In this document: positions 19,541 to 56,884 of the stretch, piece after piece
Layout: every line of letters begins with the position of its first letter
How positions within the stretch are numbered: the stretch's first letter is position 1
From: Phocaeicola faecium
GTDB lineage: Bacteria; Bacteroidota; Bacteroidia; Bacteroidales; Bacteroidaceae
Direction: 5' to 3'
DNA length: 64,000 bases
NCBI RefSeq assembly: GCF_014837055.1
Contig: NZ_JACSPQ010000017.1
Span: 124,001-188,000, forward strand
Translations under genes and position numbers: made by a program
The notes under the pieces: generated by a model
The model's database searches: none
Told to the model about the DNA's origin: nothing
The model's input: only the letters and a program-made list of their open reading frames with translations

Positions 19541-21895
19541 TTATTCGGTTTTCAGGTTGTTCACCGGGTTTTCACGTGTTGCCTTCAGGCTGATGAAGAA
19601 TACAGATATCAGCGAGATGAGAGATACCGTTGCGATGGAAACCAGCGGAACCCACCACGGGAATACGCTGTCGAACGTCACAATCTTGTCTATCTGACGC
19701 ACACCGAATATCATCAGCGGGATGGCAATAACGAGGCTGATGAGTAACGACACGAGTGAGAAGCGCATCAGGCGTTTCATTTCACCCGATGAACTGGAGC
19801 CAAATACCTTTCGTACCGCCATGTCGCGCTTGCGCTGGGCAATGAAGTAAATGCTCATAGCCGTAAGTCCGAGCAGTGAAATGAGCAGGGCAGCGCAAGT
19901 GAAAATAATCATCAGGCTGTTCATGCGGCTGAAATCGGAGTAAAGGTTGCGTATCTGTTTATCGTACCATTCCGACTCGAAAGAAAAATCTTTGGCAGCT
20001 ATCTTGTAAAGCTGGTCCAGCTCTTTCTTGTAAGCATTTAGGTCTCCGTCCTGTACCTCCACCGATACGTTCCACGGATAGATGCTGTCGGGATGTTGGA
20101 TTTGCATCTGGAGCGGATGAATGTCGTGGTCTATCAGGTCACGGCGGATACGGAAGTCTTTAAACACTCCTGCTATCTGAACCGGCCCGCAATTGTCACT
20201 CATAAAATGGTCGGTAACTCCGATGGTGGCAAGCGTTTTCATCGCTTTTTCGCTCATAAAGAAATTGTTCCTTCCCATCGGCGTATGGCGGTCGTCGGTA
20301 ATCTTAATGTGATAGATATCTAAGAATGCCGAGTCGACAATGAAAGTCTGAAAGCTCATTTCCAGCGTACTGTCTGCCGAAGGAATGTAAGTGGTATTGT
20401 TGTTTCCCCCATCCAATGGTATGCCGCACGAGAAAGAAACACGTTTCACGAAAGGCAGTTTCTTAGCTTCGTTACGGAAAAGTTGCAGGTCTTTTTGCGA
20501 ACCGATAGACGGATAGCTCAATACGTTGCCGAACTCATATCCCAACGGTGCGTGTACGATGCGGTAAATCTGTACGGAGAGATAAACCGAACAAGTAAGC
20601 AAGGCGATGGTCAGTCCGCTTTGTACGATGTTGAGCGTGCGCAGGTAAACAGATTTCGTCTTGCGGCGGAACGTACCTTTCACCACGTCCATCGGGTTGT
20701 AGTTAGAAAGCATCGTGGCTGGGATAAAGCCCGACAACAGGGTCAGTGCGGCGATAAACAGGATGTAAACCATGATGGTTACTCCGTTGAGGTCGCCCGT
20801 GATGTCGATTTTAGAATGAAGCAGTTCGATGGCAGTCGGCTCTGCAGCTTTGGCAAGCAGAAATCCCACGACGAACGAAACGAACGTAAGTAGAAACGAT
20901 TCTATAATCATACGCCAGAATATGCTGGGCTTTGATGAACCGAGCAGGCGGCGTGTTGCCATCTCTTTGGCACGATAGCTGGTTTGCGCCACGCTCATGC
21001 TGATGTAGTTCAGCACCGCCATCAAGAGGATGAGTACACCTACGGTAATGAAAATGACCACCAGCTTAAAGTCGTACTGGTTCAGTGGAGCTACGGCGGG
21101 GGTTTCCGAGAAATAAAAATCATGCCACGGGATGAAACGGGCTTTTTTAAATGCGCCGGAGTTTTGGTAAATCCAGAAGAATTCTCCCAAATAAGATGCC
21201 ACATCATCCGATTTCAGATTCAAGTCAGAGCCGGGAGCGGTGCGGAAAAAAAGCACACTTCCTCCCGCATTGTTCATGTGAGTACATTCGATAGAGCAGC
21301 TCCAGTTAATGTACTTCATGTTCTCAAAAGGAATGAATATCTCGATGTCGGAAGATATGATGGAGTTGTCAATATCTTCGATGACTCCGGTTACTGTAAA
21401 TGTTTCCTTGTTACATGGCACTACGGTAAGCGTCTTGCCTAAGGCTTTTTCTGTACCGAACAGGCGCAAAGCAGCCGACCGGGTGAGTACGATGCTGTTA
21501 TTGTCGGTTAATAACTGTTTGCGGTTTCCTTCCAGCAAAGTGAAACGGAAGAACTCGAAGAAGTTCTTTTTCACACAGGCACCCATTGTCTGTACCGGTT
21601 TGTCGTTTACCTGAACAAACGGCTCTGAAATGCTCATGGCACACCAGTCCTCTATCTCCGGATAACGACTTTGAAGGCGGTCACCCAGATTGTAATGTCC
21701 GCCTGCCCAATACTCATTGGCAAACACTGAGATGCGGTCGGCATCCGGCAAATCACGGTCAACGGTAAGCTGACGCATCACCATGTTGGCTATAAGTAAT
21801 ACGAACATGAGCGAGATGCTTAACCCCGCCACGTTGACCAGCGTAAAGAGCTTGTTTCGCTCCAAGAATGTAAAGTAAGTTTTCAGTCCTTTCAT
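19541..21895 (-). CDS. FtsX/MacB-type ABC transporter permease
   Basis: A 784-residue permease with a double MacB architecture: transmembrane helix (about 18-40), large periplasmic domain (about 40-275), three transmembrane helices with the FtsX core (about 280-420), then a second periplasmic and transmembrane half ending ATRENPVNNLKTE. It is last in the tolC-adaptor-GIN-permease operon. It is a close paralogue of the next gene upstream (both begin MK-LKTYFTFLERNKLFT), so the pair probably arose by tandem duplication. No ATPase is encoded in this operon. Probable role: export or extrusion of an envelope substrate or antimicrobial; substrate unknown. Confidence 0.9.
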   Translation of the reverse strand: MKGLKTYFTFLERNKLFTLVNVAGLSISLMFVLLIANMVMRQLTVDRDLPDADRISVFANEYWAGGHYNLGDRLQSRYPEIEDWCAMSISEPFVQVNDKPVQTMGACVKKNFFEFFRFTLLEGNRKQLLTDNNSIVLTRSAALRLFGTEKALGKTLTVVPCNKETFTVTGVIEDIDNSIISSDIEIFIPFENMKYINWSCSIECTHMNNAGGSVLFFRTAPGSDLNLKSDDVASYLGEFFWIYQNSGAFKKARFIPWHDFYFSETPAVAPLNQYDFKLVVIFITVGVLILLMAVLNYISMSVAQTSYRAKEMATRRLLGSSKPSIFWRMIIESFLLTFVSFVVGFLLAKAAEPTAIELLHSKIDITGDLNGVTIMVYILFIAALTLLSGFIPATMLSNYNPMDVVKGTFRRKTKSVYLRTLNIVQSGLTIALLTCSVYLSVQIYRIVHAPLGYEFGNVLSYPSIGSQKDLQLFRNEAKKLPFVKRVSFSCGIPLDGGNNNTTYIPSADSTLEMSFQTFIVDSAFLDIYHIKITDDRHTPMGRNNFFMSEKAMKTLATIGVTDHFMSDNCGPVQIAGVFKDFRIRRDLIDHDIHPLQMQIQHPDSIYPWNVSVEVQDGDLNAYKKELDQLYKIAAKDFSFESEWYDKQIRNLYSDFSRMNSLMIIFTCAALLISLLGLTAMSIYFIAQRKRDMAVRKVFGSSSSGEMKRLMRFSLVSLLISLVIAIPLMIFGVRQIDKIVTFDSVFPWWVPLVSIATVSLISLISVFFISLKATRENPVNNLKTE

Positions 21896-21983: not shown

Positions 21984-24344
21984 CTATTCCGTCTTAATAT
22001 TGTTTATCGGATTTTCTCGCGTGGCGCTTCGGCTGATAAGTCCTATCGACAGCAGTGAGATGGCGGCTACGGCGATGAAAGCCACACATGCCGTCCACCA
22101 CGGAAACGACTTGTCGTAACCCACGATGCGCTGGATGTAACGGAATCCTATCCCGATTATCGGGACGGCGATGAGCAAACTGGCGGCAAGCGACTGACCT
22201 GCAAATGCCAACAGACGCAGCAGTTCATGCCGGTTATCCGAACCGAACACCTTGCGTATCGCCATGTCGCGTTTGCGCTGGGCAATGAAGTAAAGGCTCA
22301 TAGCCGTCAGTCCCAACAGGGAGATAAGCAGGGCAGCAAGCGTGAATATGCCTATAACCTTGTTCATGCGGATAATGTCGGCATAGGCATCCGCTATCCA
22401 GTAATCATACCAATGTGATTCGAACGGGACTCCTTCTATTATTTCCGAGTAGAGTGCGTCCAACTGATGCTTGTAGGCAGGCAAATCGCCGTCGGTTGTT
22501 TCTACCAAGATGTCCCACGGATACCCGATGCTGTCCGACGGGATAATCTGCATCAGTACGGGGCGTATGGGGTCTAATGCCGAATACATGCGGAAATCAG
22601 GGAAGCGTCCGGCTATTGTTCTCGATGCGTCCTCGCCTTCAATCTTAAACGAAACCGCATCGTCGTCCAATCCCATCTGCCGGAACGCTTCGTGGTTCAG
22701 GTAGTAATTCCGGTCGCTGTAAGTCAGGTGATAATCTCGTTCCAACGGGATGTGGAAAATATCGAGGAAAGCCGAGTCGGTTTGCAGCAAGCGGAAGTCT
22801 ACCGGAACGATACGCCCCTTCAGGTTATAGGTAGTGGAGTGTCCGTTTCCGCCATCGACGGGCATACCGCGCGTCAACGATACATTTTTTACGAACGGTA
22901 ACTTGCGAACCTCGTCGCGGAAGCGGTATAGATTATTCGTCTCGCTCATGTTAGGATAACAAAGTACATTGCCGTAAGTATATCCTAACGGCTCGTGAAG
23001 CAGGCGGTAAATCTGTACGCCGAGAAAGAATGAACAGGCAAGCAGAGCCACTGTCAGTCCGCACTGTACCACGTAGAGCGTACGCAGATAAACCGCTTTG
23101 GTCTTGCGCCGGAACGTACCCTTTACCACATCCATCGGGTTGTAGTGTGACAGAATCGTGGCAGGAACGAAACCCGATACGGCAGAAAGCAGCAGGATGC
23201 CCGCTATGTAGACTGCTGCAACCGGTACAGTTAAGTCGCCCGCTACGTCAATTTTGGTTTTCAGTAGCTCCATGGCGAAAGGCTCTACCGCCTTAGCCAG
23301 CAGGAAAGCAAGGGCAAACGCAATGAAAGTCATGATAAGCGATTCTGCCATCATGCGCCAGAAGATATCCTTCGATGACGAACCTAACAGGCGGCGTGTA
23401 GCCATCTCTTTGGCACGATAGCTGGTTTGAGCCACGCTCATACTTATATAGTTGAACACAGCCATCAGCAAAATCAGTATCCCCGTTACGGTAAACACTG
23501 TCATCAGCTTGCGGCTGTACTGGTTCATGTTAGCGCATTCTATTTCTGAAAAATACACCTCGCGCATCGGAACCCAAAAGGCTTTCTCAAACGAACCGTT
23601 GTGATAAGGCCATGCAAATGTCTTGAGCCACTCCAGCATGTCAGCGTTCTTGTCGTTCGGGTCTATCCCTTGCGGCACGCGGATGAACACATTCGCCCCG
23701 CCAAAGTTCTGCATCACCGTATTCTCGATAGCGGCAGCCCAGTTGATGTATTCCATTGCCTCGAAAGGAAATACCAGCTCTGTTTCCGAAGGGAATATGG
23801 AATTGCCGATGTCTTCCATTACTCCCGTTACCGTATAGGTATGCTTGTCGGTGAAGTTCACTTTGATGCTTTTCCCCACCGCTTCCTCGTTGCCGAAGAT
23901 ACGCTTAGCCGCTGACTCCGAGATGACTACGCTGTAATTGTCCTGTAGCACATGGGCAGGGTCTCCCTCCCGAAGCCGGAAGCCGAAGAACTCGAAGAAG
24001 TTCTTGCGTGCCAGTAATACCTTCACATCAAACTTCTTACCCTCAACGTCGATGTATTCGCCACCCACACCGGCAGCATTCGTAGCCACAGTCCATTCCT
24101 CTATATCCGGATAGCGGCTCGCGAGGCGTTCGCCCAACACGTAATGCGCACCGAAATTTTGTTCGGAGCAAAACAAATACGTGCGGTCGGCATTGCGCGT
24201 GTCGCGGTCTACGGTAAGCTGGCGGGTTACCATGTTGGCGATAAGCAACACGAACATGAGCGAGATACCCAAGCCTGCCACGTTGACGAACGTAAAGAGC
24301 TTGTTGCGCTCCAAAAATGTAAAGTAAGTTTTAAGTGCTTTCAT
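21984..24344 (-). CDS. FtsX/MacB-type ABC transporter permease
   Basis: A 786-residue paralogue of the gene at 19541, with the same order of parts: first transmembrane helix (about 18-40), periplasmic MacB domain, FtsX core with AQTSYRAKEMATRRLLGSSS, and a second half ending ATRENPINNIKTE. It follows the next permease by only 3 bp and is separated from the paralogue by 88 bp with no clear promoter. It belongs to the same operon as tolC and the adaptor. Its nucleotide-binding partner is presumably encoded elsewhere; the ATPase at 53730 is a candidate. Confidence 0.9.
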   Translation of the reverse strand: MKALKTYFTFLERNKLFTFVNVAGLGISLMFVLLIANMVTRQLTVDRDTRNADRTYLFCSEQNFGAHYVLGERLASRYPDIEEWTVATNAAGVGGEYIDVEGKKFDVKVLLARKNFFEFFGFRLREGDPAHVLQDNYSVVISESAAKRIFGNEEAVGKSIKVNFTDKHTYTVTGVMEDIGNSIFPSETELVFPFEAMEYINWAAAIENTVMQNFGGANVFIRVPQGIDPNDKNADMLEWLKTFAWPYHNGSFEKAFWVPMREVYFSEIECANMNQYSRKLMTVFTVTGILILLMAVFNYISMSVAQTSYRAKEMATRRLLGSSSKDIFWRMMAESLIMTFIAFALAFLLAKAVEPFAMELLKTKIDVAGDLTVPVAAVYIAGILLLSAVSGFVPATILSHYNPMDVVKGTFRRKTKAVYLRTLYVVQCGLTVALLACSFFLGVQIYRLLHEPLGYTYGNVLCYPNMSETNNLYRFRDEVRKLPFVKNVSLTRGMPVDGGNGHSTTYNLKGRIVPVDFRLLQTDSAFLDIFHIPLERDYHLTYSDRNYYLNHEAFRQMGLDDDAVSFKIEGEDASRTIAGRFPDFRMYSALDPIRPVLMQIIPSDSIGYPWDILVETTDGDLPAYKHQLDALYSEIIEGVPFESHWYDYWIADAYADIIRMNKVIGIFTLAALLISLLGLTAMSLYFIAQRKRDMAIRKVFGSDNRHELLRLLAFAGQSLAASLLIAVPIIGIGFRYIQRIVGYDKSFPWWTACVAFIAVAAISLLSIGLISRSATRENPINNIKTE

Positions 24345-24347
24345 ACA

Positions 24348-26696
24348 TCATTCCGTTTTAATCGAGTTAGCCGGATTCTCGTTGGCGTTTCTCCAGCTCT
24401 GTATAGTTACGGTTAGCATGGTAATAAGCGAAACGAGCAGGAACGAGGCAAGGAATATCCAAGCACGTATGGGAGTCTTTTCGGCAAAACCTTCTAACCA
24501 ATGTGCTCCGATCCACCATCCGAAGGGTGCGGCGAAGATGAAGCATCCTATTAATATGTACAAGTACCGGCGGTTGAACATGCCCAGTATTTCGCCCGTA
24601 GTGCTGCCGAATATCTTACGGATGCCTATCTCCTTGCGGCGGTATTCGCTCTCGAACATGGTAAGCCCGAACACGCCAATGATGCTGATAACGATGGCAA
24701 GCAGTGAGAAGAGCAGGATTTGTTTGGTAAAACGCAATTCGTTACGGTAAGCCTCATCGAGCACTTGGTCGATGAAGCGGAAATTGAAGTCGTGACCCGG
24801 AGAGAACTTTTCCATCGCTTTCTGCAATGCACGGACTACTTCTACCTTGTCTGTACCGGCAGAGACACGAACGTTAATGAAGTTCTTTCCTCCCCAGCCC
24901 TGATGGTCTTTCCCGTAGATAAAGAACGCCATGGGCTGGGCATTGTTATCGTTGCGGAACGAAGTGTATTTCACATTCTCACAGAAGCCTATCACGGGAT
25001 AGTCGTTCGTGGTAGCAGGCTGGTCTACGGCGAGCCATTGATATTTAGCACGCGCTGCTTCGTTGAATATGTACACGTCACCGTCGCCGGGCTTAAAGTC
25101 TCGCCCTTCGGTGATGCGGATTCCCATCAGCTTGAGGTAGCGGTAGTCTACGGGCAGTACATCGAATAGGAGATGTTTGTCATCTGCGCCCCGTCCCCAA
25201 TTCATGTAGCTGTCGGCAGAACTCAGAACGAATTGCGATACCGAAGCTCCCTCTACGCCCGATATCCGGCTGACCTCTGCTATCACCGCGTCTGTCTGAC
25301 TTCGGGTTTCGTCTGTCATGTTGCCCACTACGATGGCATCCTTATCGTAACCGTAATCGGTGGTACGGATGTATCGGCTTTGGGTGTACATGATGCCGAT
25401 GGCAATAATAAGGGCAAACGAAACAAAGAACTGAATGCAGACCAGTCCCGTGCGCAACTTGCGTCCCTTAGGGGTTAAACCGAACGACCCTTTCAGTACC
25501 AAAGCAGGTGGGAACGAGGTAACATACCATGACGGATAAAGCCCCGCGAGCAGTCCCATCGCCAAACTCAGCACGAAAGTAGCGGTTAGCAGGTAGGGGT
25601 GACTGCCGAAACTCAGATCGGAGGCGACCAAATCCTGCATTCCCGAATCCCGAAGAGCCAGCAACAGCACAAGGGAGAGCAAGAAAGCGATAAAGCTGAT
25701 TAATGCCGATTCTGCCATGAGGCTTCCGCGAAGCGAGCGGGTAGTAGCCCCCAATACTTTCTGTGTATTGATGCTTCTGATGCGCATCGGCGTTTCCGCC
25801 AATGAGAAATTCATGAAGTTTATCGTAGCAATGATTACGATAAGGAACGATACGCATATCAGCAGGTAAACCGTAGTGCGGCTGCTTGCACTCTTATCGC
25901 CTATAGTTGAAAAGTGTACATCAGTAAGTGGAGTAAGATGAATCGGACAATCTACATTGTTTTCGTCCATCAAGTCGGGAAAGAACTCCATCAACTTCTG
26001 TACGGTTGCTTTTTCGATATTTCCGGCTTCTTCCGGATTATCTATACGTATGTAGCAATGATAATTCCAGTTACTCCAGTTGTCTTTATTTTCGTTCGGA
26101 GCAAGTGCCTTAAAAATAGTATTCCTTATTTGGGAGTTTTCGGGAAAATCTTTATAAACTCCACCCACTGTAACCGGATTATTATCGGCTCGTTTTCCCT
26201 GAAAGATGGTTTGTCCTACAACATCGGTTGTACCGAAAAACCTGATTGCCATAGTCTGTGGAATAAGAATGTTTCCGGGTTGCTTCAGTGCGTCAGCAGT
26301 ACCATTTATCATTTCCGGCTGGAAAGTTTCCATGAAATTTCCAAATCCTGTGAGTGTTTTCTCATTAAATAATTTACCGTTTACTTCATAATCGAAACTT
26401 GAAGAGTATGAAGTAAGAATAGAAAGTGATGTTATATGCGGTGACGTTGATTGCACCAATTCGCAAAACGGGCGTGCCAGCCATACTTGCCAGCCGTATT
26501 CATCGTTTACATGAACTTCCACACGGAATATCTTTTCATAATCCTTATACCCCTTGTTGAAATTGTAATCGTAATCCACCTGCGTCATGATAACGAAGAA
26601 CGAGGCAAAAGCAATCGCCAGTCCCACGATGTTCAATACGCTGGCGGTAAAGAAACGCCGGAACGTATGCGAAAAGTTACGGATGAGAGTTTTCAT
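24348..26696 (-). CDS. FtsX/MacB-type ABC transporter permease
   Basis: A 782-residue permease of the same architecture but more divergent than the two downstream paralogues (N-terminus MKTLIRNFSHTFRRF, FtsX core with MRIRSINTQKVLGATTRSLRG, end ANENPANSIKTE). Its N-terminal 110 residues resemble the truncated permease at 53371 (MNTILRNLFYTLRRF). It follows the GIN-domain gene by 21 bp. The three permeases in a row suggest either several transport complexes sharing one TolC/adaptor, or a hetero-oligomeric exporter. Confidence 0.9.
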   Translation of the reverse strand: MKTLIRNFSHTFRRFFTASVLNIVGLAIAFASFFVIMTQVDYDYNFNKGYKDYEKIFRVEVHVNDEYGWQVWLARPFCELVQSTSPHITSLSILTSYSSSFDYEVNGKLFNEKTLTGFGNFMETFQPEMINGTADALKQPGNILIPQTMAIRFFGTTDVVGQTIFQGKRADNNPVTVGGVYKDFPENSQIRNTIFKALAPNENKDNWSNWNYHCYIRIDNPEEAGNIEKATVQKLMEFFPDLMDENNVDCPIHLTPLTDVHFSTIGDKSASSRTTVYLLICVSFLIVIIATINFMNFSLAETPMRIRSINTQKVLGATTRSLRGSLMAESALISFIAFLLSLVLLLALRDSGMQDLVASDLSFGSHPYLLTATFVLSLAMGLLAGLYPSWYVTSFPPALVLKGSFGLTPKGRKLRTGLVCIQFFVSFALIIAIGIMYTQSRYIRTTDYGYDKDAIVVGNMTDETRSQTDAVIAEVSRISGVEGASVSQFVLSSADSYMNWGRGADDKHLLFDVLPVDYRYLKLMGIRITEGRDFKPGDGDVYIFNEAARAKYQWLAVDQPATTNDYPVIGFCENVKYTSFRNDNNAQPMAFFIYGKDHQGWGGKNFINVRVSAGTDKVEVVRALQKAMEKFSPGHDFNFRFIDQVLDEAYRNELRFTKQILLFSLLAIVISIIGVFGLTMFESEYRRKEIGIRKIFGSTTGEILGMFNRRYLYILIGCFIFAAPFGWWIGAHWLEGFAEKTPIRAWIFLASFLLVSLITMLTVTIQSWRNANENPANSIKTE

Positions 26697-26717: not shown

Positions 26718-27323
26718 TTATTTCCCTATTTTCAGATTGTTGGTGTTACATACGCCTACACCGTCTTTGCTGATGCGGGCATGGTCGGCAGAGCCACTCA
26801 ACACCACTTTGCCCACCCCGTCTAAGTCGGCACGGAGGTCGCGGCAAGTAACGTGTACGTCGGTTTTACCCACACCGTCTACCGACAGGCGGAGCGTTTC
26901 ACACTTCAGGTCTTCCATTTCTACCGAACCCACACCGTCTACGTCGATACGGATGTCGTCCACCTTCAAGGTCTTTTCGCAACGGAACGAGCCAACCCCG
27001 TCGAACGACAACTCATCAAGGTCGGGCGCGGTAAGATAGATTTTCGTCCCCTTCTGGTTACGTTTCTTCTTTGAATCGGTTTCGATGTAGAGCTTTCCGT
27101 CTTTCACCGTTACTACCGTATTTCTGACATCCGTTTCTTCACCTTCTATGCGTACCGAGCATTTGCTGTCTTGCGTGAAGTAAACGCCCGCCACGCCGTC
27201 CATTTCGATAGAAGAAAAACTCTCTACGTCCCGTTCTTCTACCACGGTTTTCTTACTTGCCATACAAGAAGTGAAACATCCCATTCCTACTATCCCTATC
27301 AGTGTTAAAATAATCTTTTTCAT
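26718..27323 (-). CDS. GIN-domain (DUF2807-type) lipoprotein with DGVG repeats
   Basis: A 201-residue lipoprotein with signal ending FTSC (Cys20). The body is a right-handed beta-helix type head-GIN domain. The tetrapeptide DGVG appears at 108-111, 129-132, 149-152, 168-171 and 187-190, plus DGVA at 42-45, with a period of 19-21 residues, one coil of the helix each. Proteins of this fold are common in Bacteroidetes envelopes, but the function is unknown. Its place between adaptor and permeases suggests an accessory periplasmic part of the export operon. It is preceded by a 170-bp gap containing a dispersed repeat. Confidence 0.8.
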   Translation of the reverse strand: MKKIILTLIGIVGMGCFTSCMASKKTVVEERDVESFSSIEMDGVAGVYFTQDSKCSVRIEGEETDVRNTVVTVKDGKLYIETDSKKKRNQKGTKIYLTAPDLDELSFDGVGSFRCEKTLKVDDIRIDVDGVGSVEMEDLKCETLRLSVDGVGKTDVHVTCRDLRADLDGVGKVVLSGSADHARISKDGVGVCNTNNLKIGK

Positions 27324-27492: not shown

Positions 27493-28743
27493 TTATTTCA
27501 GTATCAAAACTTCGTTGTCTTTATAGCTTTCGTAGCCGGAGATGATAACCCGTTCTCCTTTCTCTAACCCTTCGGTCACCTCGTAGAACTGCGGGTTCTG
27601 CCGTCCGATGCGGATTTTGCGGCGATAGGCTTTTTCCCCGTTTTTATCTACCACGAATATCCAGTTTCCGCCCGTTACTTGGAAGAAAGTGCCCTTCGGT
27701 ATCAGAACGCTTTGGGTAGGCTCGCCCAACTGGAGGTCGATGTAATACGTCTGTCCGCTGCGGATGTTCTCCGGGCGTGTACCTTCGAACACGAGGTCGG
27801 TGCGGAAACGTCCCTCACGCACTTCCGGATAAACCTTGCGCACCTTCAGGCTGAACTGCGATCCCTGCCGCTCGAACGTGGCAGGCAGTCCGTTTGTCAC
27901 CCGGTCGATGTAATGCTCGTCTATCATCGCCTCTATCTTGAAGTCGGAAAGGTCGTTAATCTGACCCACCATCTGTCCGGCAGTAATGTTTTGTCCCAGC
28001 TCGGCATCAAGCAAGCCCAGTTCGCCGTCAATGGGAGCGCGAACCTCCAACTTGTCTTTGCGTTCGCGAATCAGCAACACATTCTTGCGCATGTTCTGCA
28101 AGTTTTCTTCCATCTGTTCCATCTGGATGTTGCGGTAAATCGAATCCTGTTTCAGGCGTTCGGTTATCAGTCCGTGCTTTTTCAGTGAAACCTCGTAATC
28201 CTCTTTCGCCTGAAGATATTCTTCGCGGCTGATGAGGCGTTCCTTATACAGACGTTCGTACTGGTGGAACGTGCGCTGCTTGCGGAGCGTCTCCACATCT
28301 AATTGAACCTTTTCGGTTTCGTTTGTCAGCTTGTCTTGCTGCATGGTAACCTGCGTATTGCGTAGCAGGTTCTGCTTCTCGGCAAGCTCCGATTCGGCAT
28401 TCAGAATCTGGAGGTCGAGGTTCGAATTGCTGAGGCGGAGAATCACGTCGCCCTGCTTTACATGTGCGCCTTCCTCTACCACCTTCTCGCGTACGATGCC
28501 CCCTTCCTCCGGGCTGAGCTGTACGATGGAAATAGGCTGTACCTGCCCGTTTACGCGGATGTAGTCGTTAAACTCTCCGTAAGTCACTTCGGCAATGTTC
28601 AACGAACGCCCGTCGACTTTCAGCGTCGAGGCATGATTGCCAAAGATAATCCAAACCACTAACAGAAGCAATGCAGCTCCGCCGATGAGGTAAGGCAAGT
28701 GACGCTTTTGAATCCCTTTTTTCTTTTCTAATTGTATATCCAT
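27493..28743 (-). CDS. HlyD/RND-type periplasmic adaptor
   Basis: A membrane-fusion protein of 416 residues that would bridge the inner-membrane permeases and TolC. One N-terminal transmembrane helix (about 20-40) is followed by a lipoyl half-motif (about 65-105, VKQGDVILRLSNSNLDL), a long coiled-coil hairpin rich in Glu, Lys and Gln (about 110-240), the second lipoyl half (VRAPIDGELGLLDAELGQNI) and a beta-barrel domain. The C-terminal strands include YEVTEGLEKGERVIISGYESY. It lies 8 bp downstream of tolC. This is the expected third component of a MacAB-TolC-like exporter. Confidence 0.93.
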   Translation of the reverse strand: MDIQLEKKKGIQKRHLPYLIGGAALLLLVVWIIFGNHASTLKVDGRSLNIAEVTYGEFNDYIRVNGQVQPISIVQLSPEEGGIVREKVVEEGAHVKQGDVILRLSNSNLDLQILNAESELAEKQNLLRNTQVTMQQDKLTNETEKVQLDVETLRKQRTFHQYERLYKERLISREEYLQAKEDYEVSLKKHGLITERLKQDSIYRNIQMEQMEENLQNMRKNVLLIRERKDKLEVRAPIDGELGLLDAELGQNITAGQMVGQINDLSDFKIEAMIDEHYIDRVTNGLPATFERQGSQFSLKVRKVYPEVREGRFRTDLVFEGTRPENIRSGQTYYIDLQLGEPTQSVLIPKGTFFQVTGGNWIFVVDKNGEKAYRRKIRIGRQNPQFYEVTEGLEKGERVIISGYESYKDNEVLILK

Positions 28744-28751
28744 ATCCTTTA

Positions 28752-30113
28752 TCAGTTTTCCGTTTTTACTTTAATGATGTTTTCTCCTTTATAATAGTCT
28801 ACCAACCTACATTTCATTACGTACGTCAGCCGGCTTTGCAGCAGCAGCGTTTCGCTCTCCAGCCATGTAGCCGCGTTGTTCTGCACGTCGAGCGAAGTCA
28901 TCAGTCCCTCTTCATACTTGCGGCGCGTTACGTGATAGGCAAGCGAGTCTGAAGCCGCTTTCTTTTCCATCTGGATGCTTTCGCGCAAATACCCCTCGCG
29001 GTCTTGCACTGCCTGTTGTACTAACTTCTGAAGCTCCTCTTTCTGCGCTTCGTACTGTTCGCAGGCAATCCGGTAATTGTTACGCGCCTGACGGAGACTT
29101 ATCGAACCACTCATGCGGTTGAAAATGGGGATGCTCATCGTAACTCCGAAATATTCTCCCAAGTTGTTATCGAGCTGTGTCTTGAAATCCGGATAATCAT
29201 GGTTATGCAGCTCCTTGTAGTACGAACTGGATATGCCTCCGTAGAATGAAATGGTAGGCAAGACGTTCGCCCATGCTATTTTACGGTTCATGCGCGCCAC
29301 CTGTTTGTTCATTTCCGACTGGCGTAGCGTGGGGTTCACACTGAGAGCAATGCGAAGCACGTCTTGCGGATGTTCGTCTGTCAGCCGAATCGACTCGAAA
29401 GTCTGTATATCGAGTATATCCGTATTGAGCAACAAAGAATCTCCGGCAGGGTAATTCATTTTCTGTTTCAGCGTGAGCATTGCCGTTTCGTAAAGATTCC
29501 GCTGATGCGTCAGGTTATATGCGTCGGTAGCCTGCTGAGCTTCCATTTGTGCAACGTCGGCACGTCCTTTCAGCCCTAATTCTTCCTGTCGGCGCGTTTT
29601 GTAAAGTAAAGAATCACTCTCTGCCAGTTTCTTTTCCGCCAAGCGGATGGTTCCGTAGTAATAAAGTACGTCGATGTAAGCCTGAAAGGTTTCAAGAGCA
29701 GTGTTGTCTTGCGCTTCCTGCAAGGCAGCCTTTCCCAACAGCAAGGCAGCTTTCGAGCGGCGCACTTCGTTTACTAAACTTCCGCCCCGGAAGAGCGTCA
29801 TTGAGGCTTCGGCAGCGTAACTGTTGTTGAAAGTCGACACATTATTATATATGTTGGTTTCCGGGTCGACCGACCGACCGAAGTTATACTGTACACCTGC
29901 GCTTGCATTGATGCCCGGTAAAAAATTGCCGATAGCCTTGAGGCGGTCAAGCCGGTAATTGTCGGCTTCTAATCGGCGCTGTTTCACCGTGCGGTTGTGT
30001 TTCACGGCGTAACTCATACAGCGGTCTACATCCCACGCCTCTTGCGCCGTGGCAGCCAGTCCGCAACCCACGGCAAGGAATAAGAGAACTGTTATTTTTC
30101 TGTATCTTTTCAT
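28752..30113 (-). CDS. TolC family outer-membrane efflux protein
   Basis: A 453-residue outer-membrane channel. The signal peptide ends near AATAQEA, followed by two long helical hairpin repeats with heptad patterns (for example KRRLEADNYRLDRLK) and TolC-like strands. A longer frame begins at an ATG at 30161, but that ATG is part of the sigma-54 promoter (ATGGCACGG), so it cannot be the translation start of this transcript. ATG 30113 gives a proper signal peptide. It is the first gene of the operon tolC-adaptor-GIN-permease-permease-permease and is divergent from its probable regulator. Confidence 0.93.
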   Translation of the reverse strand: MKRYRKITVLLFLAVGCGLAATAQEAWDVDRCMSYAVKHNRTVKQRRLEADNYRLDRLKAIGNFLPGINASAGVQYNFGRSVDPETNIYNNVSTFNNSYAAEASMTLFRGGSLVNEVRRSKAALLLGKAALQEAQDNTALETFQAYIDVLYYYGTIRLAEKKLAESDSLLYKTRRQEELGLKGRADVAQMEAQQATDAYNLTHQRNLYETAMLTLKQKMNYPAGDSLLLNTDILDIQTFESIRLTDEHPQDVLRIALSVNPTLRQSEMNKQVARMNRKIAWANVLPTISFYGGISSSYYKELHNHDYPDFKTQLDNNLGEYFGVTMSIPIFNRMSGSISLRQARNNYRIACEQYEAQKEELQKLVQQAVQDREGYLRESIQMEKKAASDSLAYHVTRRKYEEGLMTSLDVQNNAATWLESETLLLQSRLTYVMKCRLVDYYKGENIIKVKTEN

Positions 30114-30144: not shown

Positions 30145-30160
30145 ATCAAATACCGTGCCA
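30145..30160 (-). promoter_or_regulatory. Sigma-54 type promoter of the tolC operon
   Basis: The minus strand reads TGGCACGGTATTTGAT, matching the -24/-12 consensus TGGCACG-N4-TTG with a deviation at the final C. A nearly identical promoter precedes the second export locus (53324-53339). Confidence 0.8.
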
Positions 30161-30213
30161 TAAATGTAAGTGCTTGTTAATCAGTAAGAGTGAGTAGAAG
30201 CAGACGATGGGAA

Positions 30214-30254
30214 GTGTCAAAAAATTAGACACCCGGTGTCTAAATATTTGTCAC
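30214..30254. promoter_or_regulatory. Upstream activator dyad, copy 1
   Basis: A 41-bp element centred on 30234. The inner palindrome TTAGACACCCGGTGTCTAA (30225-30243) is flanked by outer half-sites GTGTC and GTCAC. Its centre is 74 bp from the T of TGGCACG, the same distance as in copy 2 (53230-53270), which matches it at 31 of 41 positions. It is probably bound by the response regulator encoded at 30320. Confidence 0.75.
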
Positions 30255-30285: not shown

Positions 30286-30293
30286 TAACTTTG
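30286..30293 (+). promoter_or_regulatory. Promoter -7 box for the regulator/kinase pair
   Basis: TAACTTTG matches TAnnTTTG, 27 bp upstream of the response-regulator start. The housekeeping sigma factor would express the regulator while the divergent operon uses sigma-54. Confidence 0.65.
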
Positions 30294-30319: not shown

Positions 30320-31684
30320 ATGGCAAAACAAGGAACGCTACTTGTGGTAGACGATAACCAGAATATTTTGACTTCGCTCCAATACTTGTTGAGCGAATAT
30401 TTCGACCGCATCATTACGCTTGGTTCTCCCGTAACCATCCCTTCGCTTTTCAGGCAGGAGAGTATCGACGTGGTATTGCTTGATATGAACTTTTCATCGG
30501 GTATTAACAGCGGAAACGAAGGATTGTACTGGCTGCGCGAAATCAAACGCTTGCGCCCGCAAACACAAGTGGTGCTCTTTACGGCGTATGCCGACATTGA
30601 CCTCGCTGTGACGGGAATCAAAGAGGGAGCTTCCGATTTCGTGGTGAAACCGTGGGACAACGCCAAACTGGTACGCACGTTGCAGGAAGCCTACGGTAAG
30701 ACGAAAGGAAAACGGCAGGCGGCAGCTCCGTCGGAACAGGCAGGAGGCTCGATGTACTGGGGAAACTCTCAGGCAATTCGCCCGCTGCGGATGTTAGTGG
30801 AAAAGGTCAGCTCGACCGATGCGAACATTCTGATAACCGGCGAGAACGGTACGGGAAAAGACATGCTGGCGCGCGAAATCCACCGCCTGTCAAGCCGGCA
30901 CACGAAACCACTGGTTACGGTAGACATGGGAGCCATTACCGAATCATTGTTTGAAAGCGAACTGTTCGGACACGTGAAAGGCTCGTTTACCGATGCTCAC
31001 GCCGACCGTGTAGGACGTTTTGAGGCAGCCGACGGCGGAACATTGTTTCTCGACGAAATAGCCAACCTGCCTTATCACCTTCAAGCCAAACTGCTTACAG
31101 CCATCCAGAAACGCAGCTTCATAAAAGTGGGCAGCAACACGCCCCAGCCTACCGACATCCGTCTGATTTGTGCTACGAACCGTGACTTGGAAGAAATGGT
31201 ACGGAAAGGAGAATTTCGCGAAGACTTGCTTTACCGCATCAACACCATCTACCTGCACATCCCCTCGTTGCGCGAACGGAGAGAGGACATCGTACCTTTG
31301 GCAAAACGTTTCCTCGCACAATATAATACGCAATACGGTAGGGCGTTGGAAGGATTCGAGCCGGAAGCACTGCGTAAGCTGCTTGACCATCCGTGGTACG
31401 GAAACATCCGCGAACTGCAACACACGATAGAAAAAGCGGTCATTCTTTCCGAAGGCAATGAACTGAAAGCAGACTGCCTGCAATTCTCGGCTGCACAACA
31501 TCAGCCGGCAGACGATACGCATCACCCGTCGGACGATATGCCGATACAAACGCTCGACGAAATGGAATGCAGTCTGGTGAAAAAAGCCATCGACCAATGC
31601 AACGGAAACCTCTCGCAAGCTGCGGCACAGTTGGGTGTTACCCGCCAGACACTGTACAATAAAATGAAGCGTTATGGCATTTAG
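30320..31684 (+). CDS. Sigma-54-dependent response regulator (NtrC family)
   Basis: A transcription activator of 454 residues. The receiver domain has the acidic pair at 11-12, phospho-acceptor Asp55 and Lys110. The AAA+ domain has Walker A GENGTGKD (174-181), the sigma-54 contact loop in the variant form GSFTDA (221-226; canonical GAFTGA), and GGTLFLDEI as Walker B. A Fis-type helix-turn-helix ends the protein (about 425-454, LSQAAAQLGVTRQTLYNKM). It is divergent from the tolC operon, with a dyad element in the shared gap, and overlaps the kinase gene by 11 bp. It probably activates both the tolC promoter and the promoter at 53324. Confidence 0.95.
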   Translation: MAKQGTLLVVDDNQNILTSLQYLLSEYFDRIITLGSPVTIPSLFRQESIDVVLLDMNFSSGINSGNEGLYWLREIKRLRPQTQVVLFTAYADIDLAVTGIKEGASDFVVKPWDNAKLVRTLQEAYGKTKGKRQAAAPSEQAGGSMYWGNSQAIRPLRMLVEKVSSTDANILITGENGTGKDMLAREIHRLSSRHTKPLVTVDMGAITESLFESELFGHVKGSFTDAHADRVGRFEAADGGTLFLDEIANLPYHLQAKLLTAIQKRSFIKVGSNTPQPTDIRLICATNRDLEEMVRKGEFREDLLYRINTIYLHIPSLRERREDIVPLAKRFLAQYNTQYGRALEGFEPEALRKLLDHPWYGNIRELQHTIEKAVILSEGNELKADCLQFSAAQHQPADDTHHPSDDMPIQTLDEMECSLVKKAIDQCNGNLSQAAAQLGVTRQTLYNKMKRYGI

Positions 31685-32978
31685 GTGGATATCATCGACG
31701 TTTATCCGTGTGGCATTACTTATTGCCGGAACCGTATTGCTTACGTTAGGAGTCAGCCGCGTAGATGTTTGGTTTATCGTAACGGGGGGCATACTGTGTG
31801 TGCTGGCAGCCTATGTGTTTTTTAAGATTCAGAATCAGCTTCGCGAAAAAAGCCATCTCATGTTAGAGGCAATCCGTAACCGCGACTATACGTTCCGCCT
31901 GCCGGTTTACGGATTGGCGGGAGGCGAACGTGTGTTGCAAGATACCCTGAACCAGTTCGGCTCACTGATGGGCGAACAGAAACAGTTCATGGAACAGCGC
32001 GAACGCTTTTACGAACAAATACTTTCGAGTGTGACTTCAGGGGTTATCGTGATGGACGAAAACATGAAAATCGTGCAGACCAATCCTGCTGCCGCCCGCT
32101 TGTTGGGACTGCCTTTCTTAGGAACGCTCCAACAATTAGAACGTTACGGCGAAGATTTCCCCGAAACCATCCGTTCGTTGGCGGCTGGCGAGCGGTGTAA
32201 CCTGCAATACACTACCACGAAAGGCGAAGTCCACCTGCTGGTGCGAGCCTCCGTCATGCAGGTAGGAGAGCATACGGTAAAGATTCTCACCCTGAACGAC
32301 ATCCGCAACGAACTCGATGCCAAAGAGTTGGATTCGTGGATAAAACTGACGCGCGTACTGACCCACGAAATCATGAATTCCATCGCTCCTATATCTTCAC
32401 TCAGCGAAACCTTTCTGCAGCGCAGCGACGTGGTGGGAACTCCGTTGTATGAGGGCGTCCGAGCCATCCATGAAACCTCTGCCGGACTGATTAACTTTGT
32501 AGACAGCTACCGCAAGTTTTCCTCTCTCCAAAAGCCTGCCCCCGAACCGTTTTACCTGTTGGAACTGATACGTCAGGTTAGCGAACTGCATCTTTTGCCT
32601 CCCGATATAACACTGACCTTGCAGATAGAGCCGGAAGACTTGATGATTTACGCCGACCCGAATCTGATTCGCCAACTGCTGATTAACCTGATAAAAAATG
32701 CCGTCCAAGCCATAGGGACGGCAAAAGGTCGCATTCACATCCGTGCCTACACAACGGCAGACGAACACATCTTTGTCTACGTAAGCAATGACGGTCCGGT
32801 AATCCCCGACGATGAAGCCGAAGAAATCTTTGTCCCCTTCTTCACTACCAAGAAAGAGGGAAGCGGTATCGGTCTGTCGCTTTCCCGCCAGATAATGAAG
32901 CTCTCCGGCGGGACTATCAGCCTGCTTCGCCCCGGAACAAACGGATGGAATACCACCTTTGTGTTGGAGTTTGAGTAA
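31674..32978 (+). CDS. Sensor histidine kinase (NtrY-like)
   Basis: An inner-membrane kinase of 434 residues, partner of the regulator whose gene it overlaps by 11 bp. Two transmembrane helices (about 10-30 and 33-50) enclose almost no periplasmic loop, so the signal is probably sensed within the membrane or cytoplasm. A PAS-like domain follows (about 112-215), then the H-box LTRVLTHEIMNSIAP (His231) and the ATPase with LINLIKNAVQAI and GSGIGLSLS. The near absence of a periplasmic domain suits detection of membrane or envelope stress, an inference. A bidirectional terminator follows. Confidence 0.94.
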   Translation: MAFRWISSTFIRVALLIAGTVLLTLGVSRVDVWFIVTGGILCVLAAYVFFKIQNQLREKSHLMLEAIRNRDYTFRLPVYGLAGGERVLQDTLNQFGSLMGEQKQFMEQRERFYEQILSSVTSGVIVMDENMKIVQTNPAAARLLGLPFLGTLQQLERYGEDFPETIRSLAAGERCNLQYTTTKGEVHLLVRASVMQVGEHTVKILTLNDIRNELDAKELDSWIKLTRVLTHEIMNSIAPISSLSETFLQRSDVVGTPLYEGVRAIHETSAGLINFVDSYRKFSSLQKPAPEPFYLLELIRQVSELHLLPPDITLTLQIEPEDLMIYADPNLIRQLLINLIKNAVQAIGTAKGRIHIRAYTTADEHIFVYVSNDGPVIPDDEAEEIFVPFFTTKKEGSGIGLSLSRQIMKLSGGTISLLRPGTNGWNTTFVLEFE

Positions 32979-53229: not shown

Positions 53230-53270
53230 TTGTCTAAAAATTATACATCGGGTGTCTATTTTTTAGACAG
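53230..53270. promoter_or_regulatory. Upstream activator dyad, copy 2
   Basis: A 41-bp element centred on 53250, with outer half-sites TGTC and GACA and the inner TTATACATCGGGTGTCTAT. It matches copy 1 at 31 of 41 positions and lies 74 bp from the T of TGGCACG, exactly as copy 1 does. Confidence 0.75.
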
Positions 53271-53323
53271 TCGGAGGTCGGCTTAATTTGTTACGTGTGC
53301 TGTATATCAGAATGTTATAAAAA

Positions 53324-53339
53324 TGGCACGGCATTTGTA
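53324..53339 (+). promoter_or_regulatory. Sigma-54 type promoter of the second export locus
   Basis: TGGCACGGCATTTGTA matches TGGCACG-N4-TTG and is nearly the same as the tolC promoter. The ATG at 53323 is part of this promoter, so it is not a translation start. Confidence 0.8.
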
Positions 53340-53370: not shown

Positions 53371-53718
53371 ATGAATACAATCTTACGAAACCTATTTTAT
53401 ACGCTGCGTCGTTTTCGGACGGCTTCCTGTCTGAATCTATTGGGACTGTCTGCCGCCTTTGCCGCTTTCGTAGTCATGATGATGAAGGTAGGCTATGAGC
53501 GAAGTTTCAATACCTGTTATCCCGAAGCCGACCGGATAGCGATTCTGGATATTAATATCGACGAAGAACCTTCGTATTTCGGTTGCGTACTTCCGCGAGG
53601 TTTCCTTGATTATGTCATCGGAAATACCTCCGGCATAGAGTGTGGAAGTATCTATGCCAAAGGTATTTTTGACGTGGCTTTCTATACCGATCCCGATAAA
53701 TCAATTAGTAACAATTAA
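53371..53718 (+). pseudogene. Truncated FtsX/MacB-type permease
   Basis: A 115-residue N-terminal fragment of a permease that should be about 780 residues. MNTILRNLFYTLRRF and the first transmembrane helix (about 18-38) resemble the start of the gene at 24348. It then breaks off about 60 residues into the periplasmic domain and ends DPDKSISNN. Only 11 bp separate its stop from the ATPase gene, so the missing 660 residues were deleted rather than frameshifted. It still occupies the first position behind the sigma-54 promoter. It might act as a small leader gene, but most likely it is a remnant. Confidence 0.8.
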
Positions 53719-53729
53719 TAGATACCATT

Positions 53730-54407
53730 ATGATTAAAATTGAAAACCTCAGCAAAACCTTCCGTACTACGGAAGTAGAAACCATTGCGTTGAACAAAGT
53801 AAACCTCGAAGTACGCGAGAAAGAGTTTGTTGCCATTATGGGACCTTCGGGATGCGGCAAATCTACCTTACTGAATATCCTCGGACTGTTGGATAACCCT
53901 ACCGAAGGAAACTATTACTTGGGCGATAAAGAAGTCGGACATTTGAAAGAAAAAGACCGCACCAACGTGAGAAAAGGTAACATCGGCTTCGTTTTTCAGA
54001 GTTTCAACCTGATAGACGAGTTGAATGTGTTTGAAAACATCGAGTTGCCGCTTACTTATCTCCACATCCCTGCCGAGGAGCGTAAGAAAAAGGTAAACGA
54101 AATCATGAAGCGCATGGGCATCAGCCACCGTGCGAAACACTATCCGCAGCAACTCTCCGGAGGACAGCAGCAGCGTGTTGCCATTGCTCGCGCCGTGGTG
54201 TCCGACCCGAAGATTATCCTTGCCGACGAGCCTACCGGTAATCTTGACTCGAAGAACGGACAGGAGGTGATGGAACTGCTTACCGAGTTGAACAAAGAGG
54301 GGACTACCATTGTGATGGTAACTCACAGCCAGCGCGACGCAGGCTTTGCCGGACGTATCATCAATCTGTTCGACGGACAAATCGTTTCGTCTATCGCTGA
54401 AATGTAA
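53730..54407 (+). CDS. ABC transporter ATP-binding protein (MacB/LolD type)
   Basis: A 225-residue ATPase energising FtsX-type permeases. Walker [10 protein letters not shown] (38-46), Q-loop FVFQSFNL, signature LSGGQQQ (142-148), Walker B IILADE (162-167) and the H-loop in MVTHSQ are all present. It is the only ABC ATPase of this family in the window, while four full-length permeases are encoded. It lies behind a sigma-54 promoter shared in design with the tolC operon, so it is the likely motor for those permeases as well as for the following one. Confidence 0.95.
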
Positions 54408-54440: not shown

Positions 54441-54500
54441 ATTCTATGGGAAGAACCGACCTGTTTAAGCCGAAGAACTTAATAACGCAACCGCTAAAAA
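54441..54500. repeat. Possible degraded GCTACCG-type repeat
   Basis: TTCTATGGGAAGAACCG and TAACGCAACCGCTAAAAAC recall blocks of copies a, e and g. It lies between ATPase and permease; its presence there supports the permease start at 54512 rather than 54446. Confidence 0.35.
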
Positions 54501-54511
54501 CACCAAACACT

Positions 54512-56884
54512 ATGGGAAGAATTTTTAAGTCCCTTTTTAGGAGGGGAGAGGCGAACGGAATCAAGATATTCTGCTTGGGCGTGGGGCTCGCCATCGGGCT
54601 GACTTTGCTTGCCGAAGTTATCTTCGAACGCTCGTATGACGACTTCATTCCACGATTGGAAGATACGTATCGGGTAGAGTCGAATTTTTTGGGGAAAGAT
54701 AATGACGGTTGGCGGTCATACTCTCAAACTGCCGGAGCCATTGCGCCGGGTATCAAGAGCTACTGCCCGGAGGTAGAGGCTGCCACACGCTTTACGGAAC
54801 TTATGTTCGGTAGCCCTTTCCAGTCGGAAGACAACAAGGTAATTCGAGGCAAGGTCTTGCTGTGCGACAGTTCGTTTTTCGATGTATTTCCCTTGCCGAT
54901 ACTGATGGGCGAATCGCCCCATACGGGATTGGAAAAGCCGGGAAACGTTTATATCTCTAAAAAGTTGCTTGACGTTTTGGGCGAAGGTATTATCGGACAC
55001 ACCCTGAGTTGGCAAGAGAATCCGAAGGTGAAGTTTACCGTAGTGGGCGTGTTCGGCGACCTGCCCGAAAATTCCCATCTGCCCGATTTGAATATGGCAG
55101 TAGCCTTATCCTCTATCGGATGGTACAGTTGGGACGGAAGAGATAACTGGATAGGAAATGACCGGTATAAGAGTTACGTCCGCCTCCGTTCAGGGACCAA
55201 TCCGGAGCAGCTCAAGCCCAATATCAAGAAAATGATAGACGACCACGTGGGGGAAGAGCTGGAGCAAGCCGGTCTAAAGCTGGATTACACCCTTTATCCT
55301 GTGAAAAAAATATTTGTATCCTCGGATTATAACCGGGTGATGAACATTGTGTTTCTTGCCTTTGCTGTGATTATGCTGTTGACGGCAATGTTGAATTACA
55401 TCTTGCTTTCCATCTCCTCAATGGTAAACCGAGCCAAAACTGTGGCTACCTACCGTTGTTACGGAGCGGGAAGCAAAGACATCTACCGGATGATACTTGC
55501 CGAATCGTTTCTGCATGTGGGTATTCTCAGTCTCGCACTGGCTGTGTTGATCATATTCGGACTGCAAGATTTCTTGCAGGAGCAGATAGGGCACAGCTTG
55601 CAGTCGCTTTTCCCGCCGCAAACAATTATAATCTGCATATTGGTCACGCTTGCGGTGGTGGTAGTTTGCGGGGTAATGCCGGGCTATCTTTATACACGCA
55701 TCCCCGTAACGTATGCTTACCGGCGTTACACCGAAAGCAAGCGGCACTGGAAGTTAGGCTTGCTTTTCGTGCAGTTTCTTCTTACCACGCTTTTCGTTAA
55801 TCTGCTGGCGGTAATCGGTCTGCAATACCACACCCTGACGAACTACGATGCCGGTTTCGAGTATAAAAGTGTGGCAATGGTAGGCCTTCCCAATGTTCCG
55901 ATGGCAGAACGGGAAAGATGCGTTCAGGAATTGCGCCGCCTGCCCAATGTCGTATCCCTGACGTGGGGATACCAGTCGCCTGCCGATAGGTGCAGTGGTA
56001 ATAATGTTTACCTTCCTGATACGAAAGAACAGTTGATGAACGTGGCAGATATGTATGACGTGGGCAGTGATTACCACAAAACGTTCCAGATTCCCCTTGT
56101 GGAAGGAGAGGTTTTCACGCCCCATCTGCAAGACACGGTGACCCGTCAGGCGATGGTAAGCCGCCGGTTTGTGGAACGGATGAAAGCATTGGCAGGCTGG
56201 GAAGGGTCTGCGGTAGGGAAGTCATTTTTCTTGAGCGAACACGGAGGACCGCTGACCATCTGCGGCGTGTACGAAGAAATCCATATCGGTTCGCAGATGA
56301 CGGAACAGCGCGACGAGCGTCCTACGGTAATGTTCTACGGAGACAAACCGATAGGAAGGCTGTTCATCCGTTTCCGTCAGATGTCGCCCGAAGCCATGCA
56401 GGAAGCACAGGCAGTGGTAGACCGCACTATGACCAGTCAGGACAAGATAGTAACCAGCTTGGGCTTGGAAATGAACAGCCTGTACGTACAGTTGCTTCAT
56501 GTGCGCAACAGTGTGCTCTTCGCCGGACTGTGTGTGCTGATTATCGCCCTCATCGGTTTGATGGCATATATCCGCGATGAAGTAACCCGCCGCCGTTCCG
56601 AAATAGCCATCCGTATCATTCACGGGGCATCGGTAGCCGATGTGCAACGGCTCTTTCTTACCGATTTGCTGAAAATAGCCCTGCCTGCCGTGGTAGTCGG
56701 TGCGCTGCTGGCATGGAAAGTGGGCGAAAATATCCTTCAGCTCTTTGCCGTAAAAATAGAGTTGTCGTGGTGGATTTTTACCGGCTGTACACTCATCGTA
56801 CTGCTTATCGTGGTGATGCTTGCCGCCTTGTTAGTATTAAAAGCCGCCCGTGTCAATCCCACCGAAAACCTGAAAACCGAATGA
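54512..56884 (+). CDS. FtsX/MacB-type ABC transporter permease
   Basis: A 790-residue permease: first transmembrane helix (about 16-38), periplasmic domain, FtsX core with MVNRAKTVATYRCYGAGSKD, and a second half ending ARVNPTENLKTE. It is directly downstream of the ATPase gene (104 bp). The frame opens at 54446, but the added 22 residues are not helix-like and overlap repeat-like DNA, so ATG 54512 is preferred. It is more distant from the other three permeases than two of them are from each other. A strong terminator follows. Confidence 0.9.
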   Translation: MGRIFKSLFRRGEANGIKIFCLGVGLAIGLTLLAEVIFERSYDDFIPRLEDTYRVESNFLGKDNDGWRSYSQTAGAIAPGIKSYCPEVEAATRFTELMFGSPFQSEDNKVIRGKVLLCDSSFFDVFPLPILMGESPHTGLEKPGNVYISKKLLDVLGEGIIGHTLSWQENPKVKFTVVGVFGDLPENSHLPDLNMAVALSSIGWYSWDGRDNWIGNDRYKSYVRLRSGTNPEQLKPNIKKMIDDHVGEELEQAGLKLDYTLYPVKKIFVSSDYNRVMNIVFLAFAVIMLLTAMLNYILLSISSMVNRAKTVATYRCYGAGSKDIYRMILAESFLHVGILSLALAVLIIFGLQDFLQEQIGHSLQSLFPPQTIIICILVTLAVVVVCGVMPGYLYTRIPVTYAYRRYTESKRHWKLGLLFVQFLLTTLFVNLLAVIGLQYHTLTNYDAGFEYKSVAMVGLPNVPMAERERCVQELRRLPNVVSLTWGYQSPADRCSGNNVYLPDTKEQLMNVADMYDVGSDYHKTFQIPLVEGEVFTPHLQDTVTRQAMVSRRFVERMKALAGWEGSAVGKSFFLSEHGGPLTICGVYEEIHIGSQMTEQRDERPTVMFYGDKPIGRLFIRFRQMSPEAMQEAQAVVDRTMTSQDKIVTSLGLEMNSLYVQLLHVRNSVLFAGLCVLIIALIGLMAYIRDEVTRRRSEIAIRIIHGASVADVQRLFLTDLLKIALPAVVVGALLAWKVGENILQLFAVKIELSWWIFTGCTLIVLLIVVMLAALLVLKAARVNPTENLKTE

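Follow-up and report, generated by a model that had tools for sequence, protein, structure and literature searches.

The window analysed here is a stretch of 64,000 nucleotides from Phocaeicola faecium (NCBI RefSeq assembly GCF_014837055.1, contig NZ_JACSPQ010000017.1, positions 124,001 to 188,000 of the forward strand). There are two loci of interest in the window: the tolC operon (locus 1) with a divergent gene pair for a response regulator and a sensor kinase, and, 23 kb away, a shorter group of permease and ATPase genes (locus 2). Each locus is preceded by a sigma-54-type promoter box and, further upstream, by a pair of palindromes (Table 1). As likely gene starts, the ATGs at 30113, which lies downstream of its box, and at 53371 were taken in preference to longer frames from 30161 and 53323, as these begin inside or just before a box.

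Table 1. Genes and promoter features at the two exporter loci (positions are those of the window)
Feature	Position	Strand	Locus	Sequence or remark
FtsX/MacB_PCD permease C	19541..21895	-	1	
FtsX/MacB_PCD permease B	21984..24344	-	1	
FtsX/MacB_PCD permease A	24348..26696	-	1	
DUF2807 (GIN domain) protein	26718..27323	-	1	
HlyD/MacA-type periplasmic adaptor	27493..28743	-	1	best NCBIfam match DarC, below cut-off
TolC-family outer membrane channel	28752..30113	-	1	
Sigma-54 -24/-12 box, tolC operon	30145..30160	-	1	TGGCACGGTATTTGAT
IHF-consensus-like block (YTR..WATCAR-N4-TTR)	30167..30184	-	1	CTGATTAACAAGCACTTA; 8/9 core positions
Promoter-proximal palindrome	30215..30231	-	1	TGTCTAATTTTTTGACA; predicted regulator dimer site
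Promoter-distal palindrome	30237..30253	-	1	TGACAAATATTTAGACA; predicted regulator dimer site
-7 element-like sequence upstream of regulator gene	30286..30293	+		TAACTTTG
NtrC-type response regulator	30320..31684	+		predicted activator of both promoters
Sensor histidine kinase	31674..32978	+		PAS, HATPase
Promoter-distal palindrome	53231..53247	+	2	TGTCTAAAAATTATACA
Promoter-proximal palindrome	53253..53269	+	2	TGTCTATTTTTTAGACA
IHF-consensus-like block	53300..53317	+	2	CTGTATATCAGAATGTTA; 9/9 core positions
Sigma-54 box	53324..53339	+	2	TGGCACGGCATTTGTA
FtsX/MacB permease remnant, 115 codons	53371..53718	+	2	
MacB/DarD-type ABC ATPase	53730..54407	+	2	
FtsX/MacB_PCD permease D	54446..56884	+	2	

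TolC channel, adaptor, MacB-fold permease and ATPase, i.e., four classes of exporter component, are all present but are spread over the two loci. The best matches to named MacB or Dar equivalogs lie below the curated cut-offs and the genes are not filed under those names; judged by its components, the exporter may work like those of the MacAB/DarBCD type. There is no ATPase gene in the tolC operon and locus 2 supplies one, which is the reason for reading the two loci as parts of a single exporter, probably co-expressed through a shared switch. In three Phocaeicola relatives (L145, L161, L190), the ATPase gene lies inside the tolC operon itself, which argues that the ATPase and the permeases form one system; in the remaining 22 operons of the TolC type no ATPase was seen, several of these gene chains ending with the fetched stretch. 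The first gene of locus 2 had been described in the initial annotation as that of a truncated permease. Its frame is indeed short, but the description has to be amended: the frame is shortened in this genome, two close relatives having approximately 800 codons. The remnant matches the first 109 residues of a frame of that length at the same place in these relatives (G026 and G079); between the remnant and the ATPase gene there is no sequence that closely continues the permease. Either the gene has been shortened in this genome, or there is a fault in the assembly.

Both promoter boxes are of the -24/-12 type TGGCAC-N5-TTGC/TTTGC. The initial annotation had reported these boxes, together with a 41-bp element upstream of each (30214-30254 and 53230-53270) that agrees at 31 of 41 positions when read in promoter orientation and is centred in both cases 74 bp from the T of TGGCACG. 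On re-checking, the positions and letters of the boxes, the agreement and the distances all proved exact. The shared element is real, but its description as a single 41-bp dyad did not survive the alignment of sites from across the genus (37 non-redundant Phocaeicola modules), from which two tandem palindromes emerged in its place: TGTCTAA-N3-TTAGACA twice, each of 17 bp, 22 bp apart from centre to centre. In the same alignment TGGCA and the TG of the -12 part of the box are invariant. Two palindromes separated by two helical turns are a usual layout of NtrC-type enhancers, and the tandem palindromes are better read as a predicted two-dimer enhancer of this type. That the promoters depend on sigma-54, as had been proposed, is in keeping with the single rpoN gene of the genome (one TIGR02395 match over cut-off, E 6e-119) and with the fact that every one of the 48 elements found in the genus faces a box.

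A scan of the whole genome (3.48 Mb in 65 contigs), which the initial annotation had put forward as a check, found the element at these two sites of the window only. The 26-bp core, with up to 3 mismatches allowed, matches at the two window sites, at the second of them on both strands, and the core pattern read backwards has no match in the same genome. A profile of the whole module, for which both window modules were among the training sequences, returned only two full modules from the genome contigs (E 2e-21 and 1e-18); the remaining five matches are the reverse-strand matches of these two modules, the promoter of a paralogous system (partial, E 0.006), and two with E above 2.

Across the genus, a search with the two-palindrome pattern (up to 3 mismatches, all places read) revealed 48 elements in 26 of 61 Phocaeicola genomes, the two of the window included, and the reversed control gave one stray match, in a genome without the pattern. 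A box of the form TGGCAYR-N4-TTG stands beside all 48 (47 exact, one with one mismatch), and no element has a box on its opposite side. The box was allowed at about 20-77 bp from the element; the distances found were 72 bp (one), 73 bp (24), 74 bp (21) and 76 bp (two). Chance likeness was considered as an explanation and is ruled out by the reversed-pattern controls and by the one-sidedness of the box. Exporter genes (TolC, HlyD, FtsX-type permease or ATPase) lie downstream of 47 of the 48 elements: 25 head TolC-HlyD-permease operons, 22 head operons for a permease, an ATPase or both, and one has no exporter behind it.

The geometry is just as narrow where loci were chosen by the regulator protein only: under a strict rule, element and box are present at 39 of 80 such loci, roughly half of which are Phocaeicola records overlapping the genus set, and in all 39 the midpoint lies 71.5-76 bp from the box, though about 50-82 bp was allowed. 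The other 41 loci are without the element under that rule, some of them being cut by contig ends or having weaker sites. In the order as a whole, the module profile matched in 71 of 247 Bacteroidales genomes, including the window's own (E up to 0.001). Twenty regions around the better matches, from 11 genomes, were chosen by the profile, so that their geometry is partly selected too; 18 of these carry the module (the exceptions being L256 and L260), with 22 modules between them, 20 of which have exporter genes within 9 kb downstream. Outside the genus, a spacing of 21 bp between the paired palindromes is seen at many sites, yet the midpoint keeps its distance of about 74 bp from the box. Ten modules were read in one Parabacteroides genome (G159, L241-L247), three of them within 12 kb, with exporter genes downstream of eight; by its predicted promoters, this is an expanded regulon.

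Between the enhancer and the box there is a further conserved part of the module. Column counts aligned on the box reveal conservation from -24 to -7: YTR, then W, C, A and R at -19, -16, -15 and -14, and T, T and R at -9 to -7. These columns fit WATCARN4TTR, TTR tail included, which is quoted as the IHF consensus in the available part of PMC7962754, where IHF between enhancer and promoter is also described as common for sigma-54 promoters. The block reaches at least 7 of 9 core positions at one fixed offset in 29 of 37 modules, whereas none of the 40 other offsets gives more than 4 of 37; in shuffled spacers the mean was 0.7 modules at or above 7/9 and never more than 4 in 2,000 trials. Within the genus, the block is weak at the fixed offset in L145, L161 and L190, three modules in which it lies one or two bases off that position. 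A search for block plus box, with no condition on the enhancer, found matches in 48 of 61 genus genomes, and the reversed pattern had no match. The window's genome has five genes of the HU/IHF family (PF00216 matches over cut-off).

The regulator encoded at 30320 has a receiver domain (PF00072), a sigma-54 interaction AAA+ domain (PF00158) and a Fis-type helix-turn-helix (PF02954), all over cut-off, with the motifs GENGTGK and GSFTDA (the latter in the loop that contacts sigma-54) and LLDM in the region of the phosphorylation site. Its nearest named relatives, by protein, are in P. plebeius (79%), P. coprocola (77%), P. faecicola (75%) and other Phocaeicola species, and all 80 relatives compared share the recognition helix [TS]RQTLY[NS]K. 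The -7-like sequence upstream of the gene we take to be a -7 element of the Bacteroides type, belonging to the promoter of the regulator gene itself; TAnnTTTG is found up to 90 bp upstream of the regulator gene in 58 of 80 relatives (3 of 80 in the reversed control). Near its N terminus the kinase carries two hydrophobic stretches separated by just a few residues, and it also has a PAS domain; for this reason it probably senses its signal in the membrane or through the PAS domain.

That this regulator uses the element at both promoters, as first suggested from its position, gains support from co-occurrence, adjacency and the facing boxes. An orthologue of at least 70% identity is present in 25 of the 26 genomes with the element, the window's own and G079 among them, versus 1 of the 35 without it (Fisher P 7e-15, uncorrected for shared ancestry), and in 23 of the 25 copies of the TolC type a divergent regulator gene is no more than about 250 bp away, against 752 and 2,982 bp in the other two. 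In G079 (G079:C27:11520-12882), where the element is present, the regulator orthologue is in two frames, owing to a frameshift or an assembly fault.

Could the tandem sites belong to another regulator of the NtrC family, with the 30320 regulator merely nearby? A candidate is available, for the same genome has on contig C1 a paralogue (48% identical) that adjoins a similar exporter operon: this second system (G000:C1:43000-60000, L203) comprises regulator, kinase, adaptor, permease, ATPase and permease, and its ATPase is 77% identical to that of locus 2. However, the paralogue's own divergent promoter has a different palindrome at the same positions: GTGCG-N4-CGCAC twice (the second copy with one change), with centres at -84.5 and -63.5 and midpoint at -74.0, where the tolC copy of the window has, by the same measure, -85, -63 and -74. 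The recognition helices also differ (TRFALYRK in the paralogue versus TRQTLYNK), and the TGTC/GACA sites follow the 30320 orthologue, beside which they lie in nearly all copies of the TolC type. Different letters at equal places, each beside its own regulator, are the best evidence available in these sequences for who binds what. There is only a small chance that another regulator owns the sites; the neighbouring 30320 regulator very probably binds the shared element.

A smaller chance still attaches to the idea that the two modules are recent duplicates of one promoter fragment, their likeness and spacing being due to copying rather than selection. The copies are in one genome, 23 kb apart, and head operons with related permease genes, as duplicates might. 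Against this, the sequences that separate element and box show no relationship between the loci except in the block next to the box: apart from the element and the box with its immediate surroundings, the two loci cannot be aligned in 20-bp windows (mostly 3-8 matches, in a few windows up to 12, versus up to 17 in element and box). The same arrangement, with differing spacers, is moreover present in 26 of the 61 Phocaeicola genomes and elsewhere in the order, and recent duplication was rejected on these two grounds. The identity of the block is a more even matter. It is also part of a palindrome, YTGAT-W-ATCAR, and so could be bound by another protein; it nearly adjoins the -24 box; and the two of the five HU/IHF-family proteins that were compared with NCBIfam fall below both the IHF and the HU cut-offs. 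The block might thus be the site of another regulator, or a contact of the sigma-54 polymerase with DNA in Bacteroidales. Against these possibilities stand the coincidence of its conserved positions with the IHF consensus down to the TTR tail, and the frequency of IHF sites between enhancer and promoter in sigma-54 promoters (consensus and frequency both as given in PMC7962754). We regard a non-IHF role as a real possibility though not the favoured one, and it is compatible with the rest of the explanation preferred here.

That explanation, to which as a whole we assign a probability of about 85%, is that a shared sigma-54 switch of two modules, run by the 30320 regulator, controls an exporter split over two loci. 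Module anatomy, conservation, rigid geometry, regulator co-occurrence, gene content, rpoN and the HU/IHF-family genes are read from the DNA, and from there we infer phosphorylation, binding, bending, the start of transcription and joint assembly of the products of both loci, as follows. The kinase would activate the response regulator, two dimers of which would bind the two tandem palindromes, centred 74 bp upstream of the -24 box. A protein of the IHF/HU type would bend the DNA at the WATCARN4TTR block, which adjoins the box on its upstream side, and the AAA+ domain would then open the sigma-54 RNA polymerase complex at TGGCACG-N4-TTG. Both modules would jointly switch on a MacAB-like tripartite exporter, for which locus 1 would give the channel, the adaptor and permeases A-C, and locus 2 the ATPase and permease D. 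The signal would be envelope stress or a toxic compound; by analogy with MacAB, substrate and signal may be a toxic compound or a peptide.

Several observations count against the split-exporter switch. The sigma-54 contact loop of the regulator (residues 221-226) is GSFTDA, not GAFTGA; among 80 relatives it is GSFTDA in 35, GAFTDA in 35, GAFTGA in 5 and otherwise in 5, the F-T pair being kept. In one genome (G083) no element was found although its regulator is 72% identical, and another (G034) has the element with a regulator of 63% identity. The related ATPase of the second system lies elsewhere in the same genome, and the remnant at 53371 means that a permease has been lost from locus 2 here. 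A perfect element with its box at L166 (G017:C1:3485642-3485680) has no exporter behind it, and the block is weak at a number of distant sites, among them some in Tannerella and Parabacteroides (2-5 of 9 positions at the fixed offset). The gene that follows the element at L166 looks, by eye and from the DNA alone, like that of an outer-membrane barrel.

The palindromes upstream of the block vary more widely than the two systems of this genome would indicate. In a sample of places with block and box, 30 sites could be classified, namely the paralogue of the window's genome and 29 of 30 loci (at the remaining locus the upstream sequence was too short): 10 have TGTC palindromes, 7 have GTGCG-N4-CGCAC, 11 have GTGTCCG-N4-CGGACAC at about -53, and 2 have none of these. 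Since sites with block and box carry differing palindromes, the block belongs to the promoter type rather than to one regulator. The GTGTCCG-N4-CGGACAC sequence, or a near form of it, lies with its centre 52.5-54.5 bp before the box in block-bearing Phocaeicola promoters (L261, L262, L264, L266, L274, L281, L283-L286 and L288). Perhaps Bacteroidales have a single rigid sigma-54 cassette, in which the IHF-like block and the -24/-12 box stand in fixed register, and to which regulators of the NtrC family attach their own palindrome dialects (TGTCTAA..TTAGACA and GTGCG..CGCAC at about -84 and -63, GTGTCCG..CGGACAC at about -53); exporters could then be split, multiplied or rewired by movement of the module, with promoter geometry and not operon structure holding the regulon together. 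For this generalisation we see the chances as evenly balanced.

Sigma-54 control of COG0577/FtsX permeases was predicted in Bacteroidia in 2025, in a paper that claims the first such link (PMC12316311). In the part of that paper available, the target class, the bacterial class and the promoter type are the same as here, but no activator is named, and neither an enhancer sequence nor an IHF-like block or a geometry is described, whereas here a regulator family and its site are assigned. In Flavobacterium, sigma-54-type promoters have been mapped before genes for protein quality and envelope stress, among others (PMC9723704, available part). A literature search, outside of which most subscription journals lie, returned no paper on the site of a regulator of the 30320 type and nothing on IHF in sigma-54 promoters of Bacteroidales. 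As far as these searches show, the assignment of regulator to site, the tandem geometry, the IHF-like block and the dialects are new. The analysis provides a concrete predicted target site and regulon for a two-component system that is widespread in gut Bacteroidales and for which no study was found; it connects split exporter loci which methods based on gene neighbourhood would handle separately; and it points to an IHF-like architectural element in Bacteroidales sigma-54 promoters.

Tandem enhancer sites, with an IHF site between them and the promoter, are known from NtrC-type sigma-54 promoters such as those of the nif and orp operons, and the enhancers of such promoters are usually viewed as tolerating variable distance. 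The promoters described here are similar in having a response-regulator AAA+ activator and paired palindromes about two helical turns apart, but differ in their targets, FtsX-permease exporters in Bacteroidales, and in the position of the enhancer, which is near-fixed: 45 of the 48 genus sites have it at 73-74 bp. As this is contrary to the usual view, the geometry can itself be used to predict targets. An IHF-like site between the enhancer and the -24/-12 promoter is a further likeness (PMC7962754, available part), although here it lies directly upstream of the -24 box. The predicted exporter resembles MacAB-TolC and the darobactin exporter DarBCD in having a TolC channel, a HlyD/MacA-type adaptor, MacB-fold permeases and a separate ATPase of the DarD/MacB type, and is unlike them in its several permeases of the duplicated type, its GIN-domain protein, its division between two loci and its below-cut-off matches. 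In Firmicutes, BceRS-BceAB is a two-component system with a short-loop membrane kinase, encoded beside FtsX-family ABC transporters. The kinase and regulator described here likewise form a two-component system with a short-loop membrane kinase adjoining FtsX-family ABC transporters, but their activator is of the sigma-54 type and not of the OmpR type.
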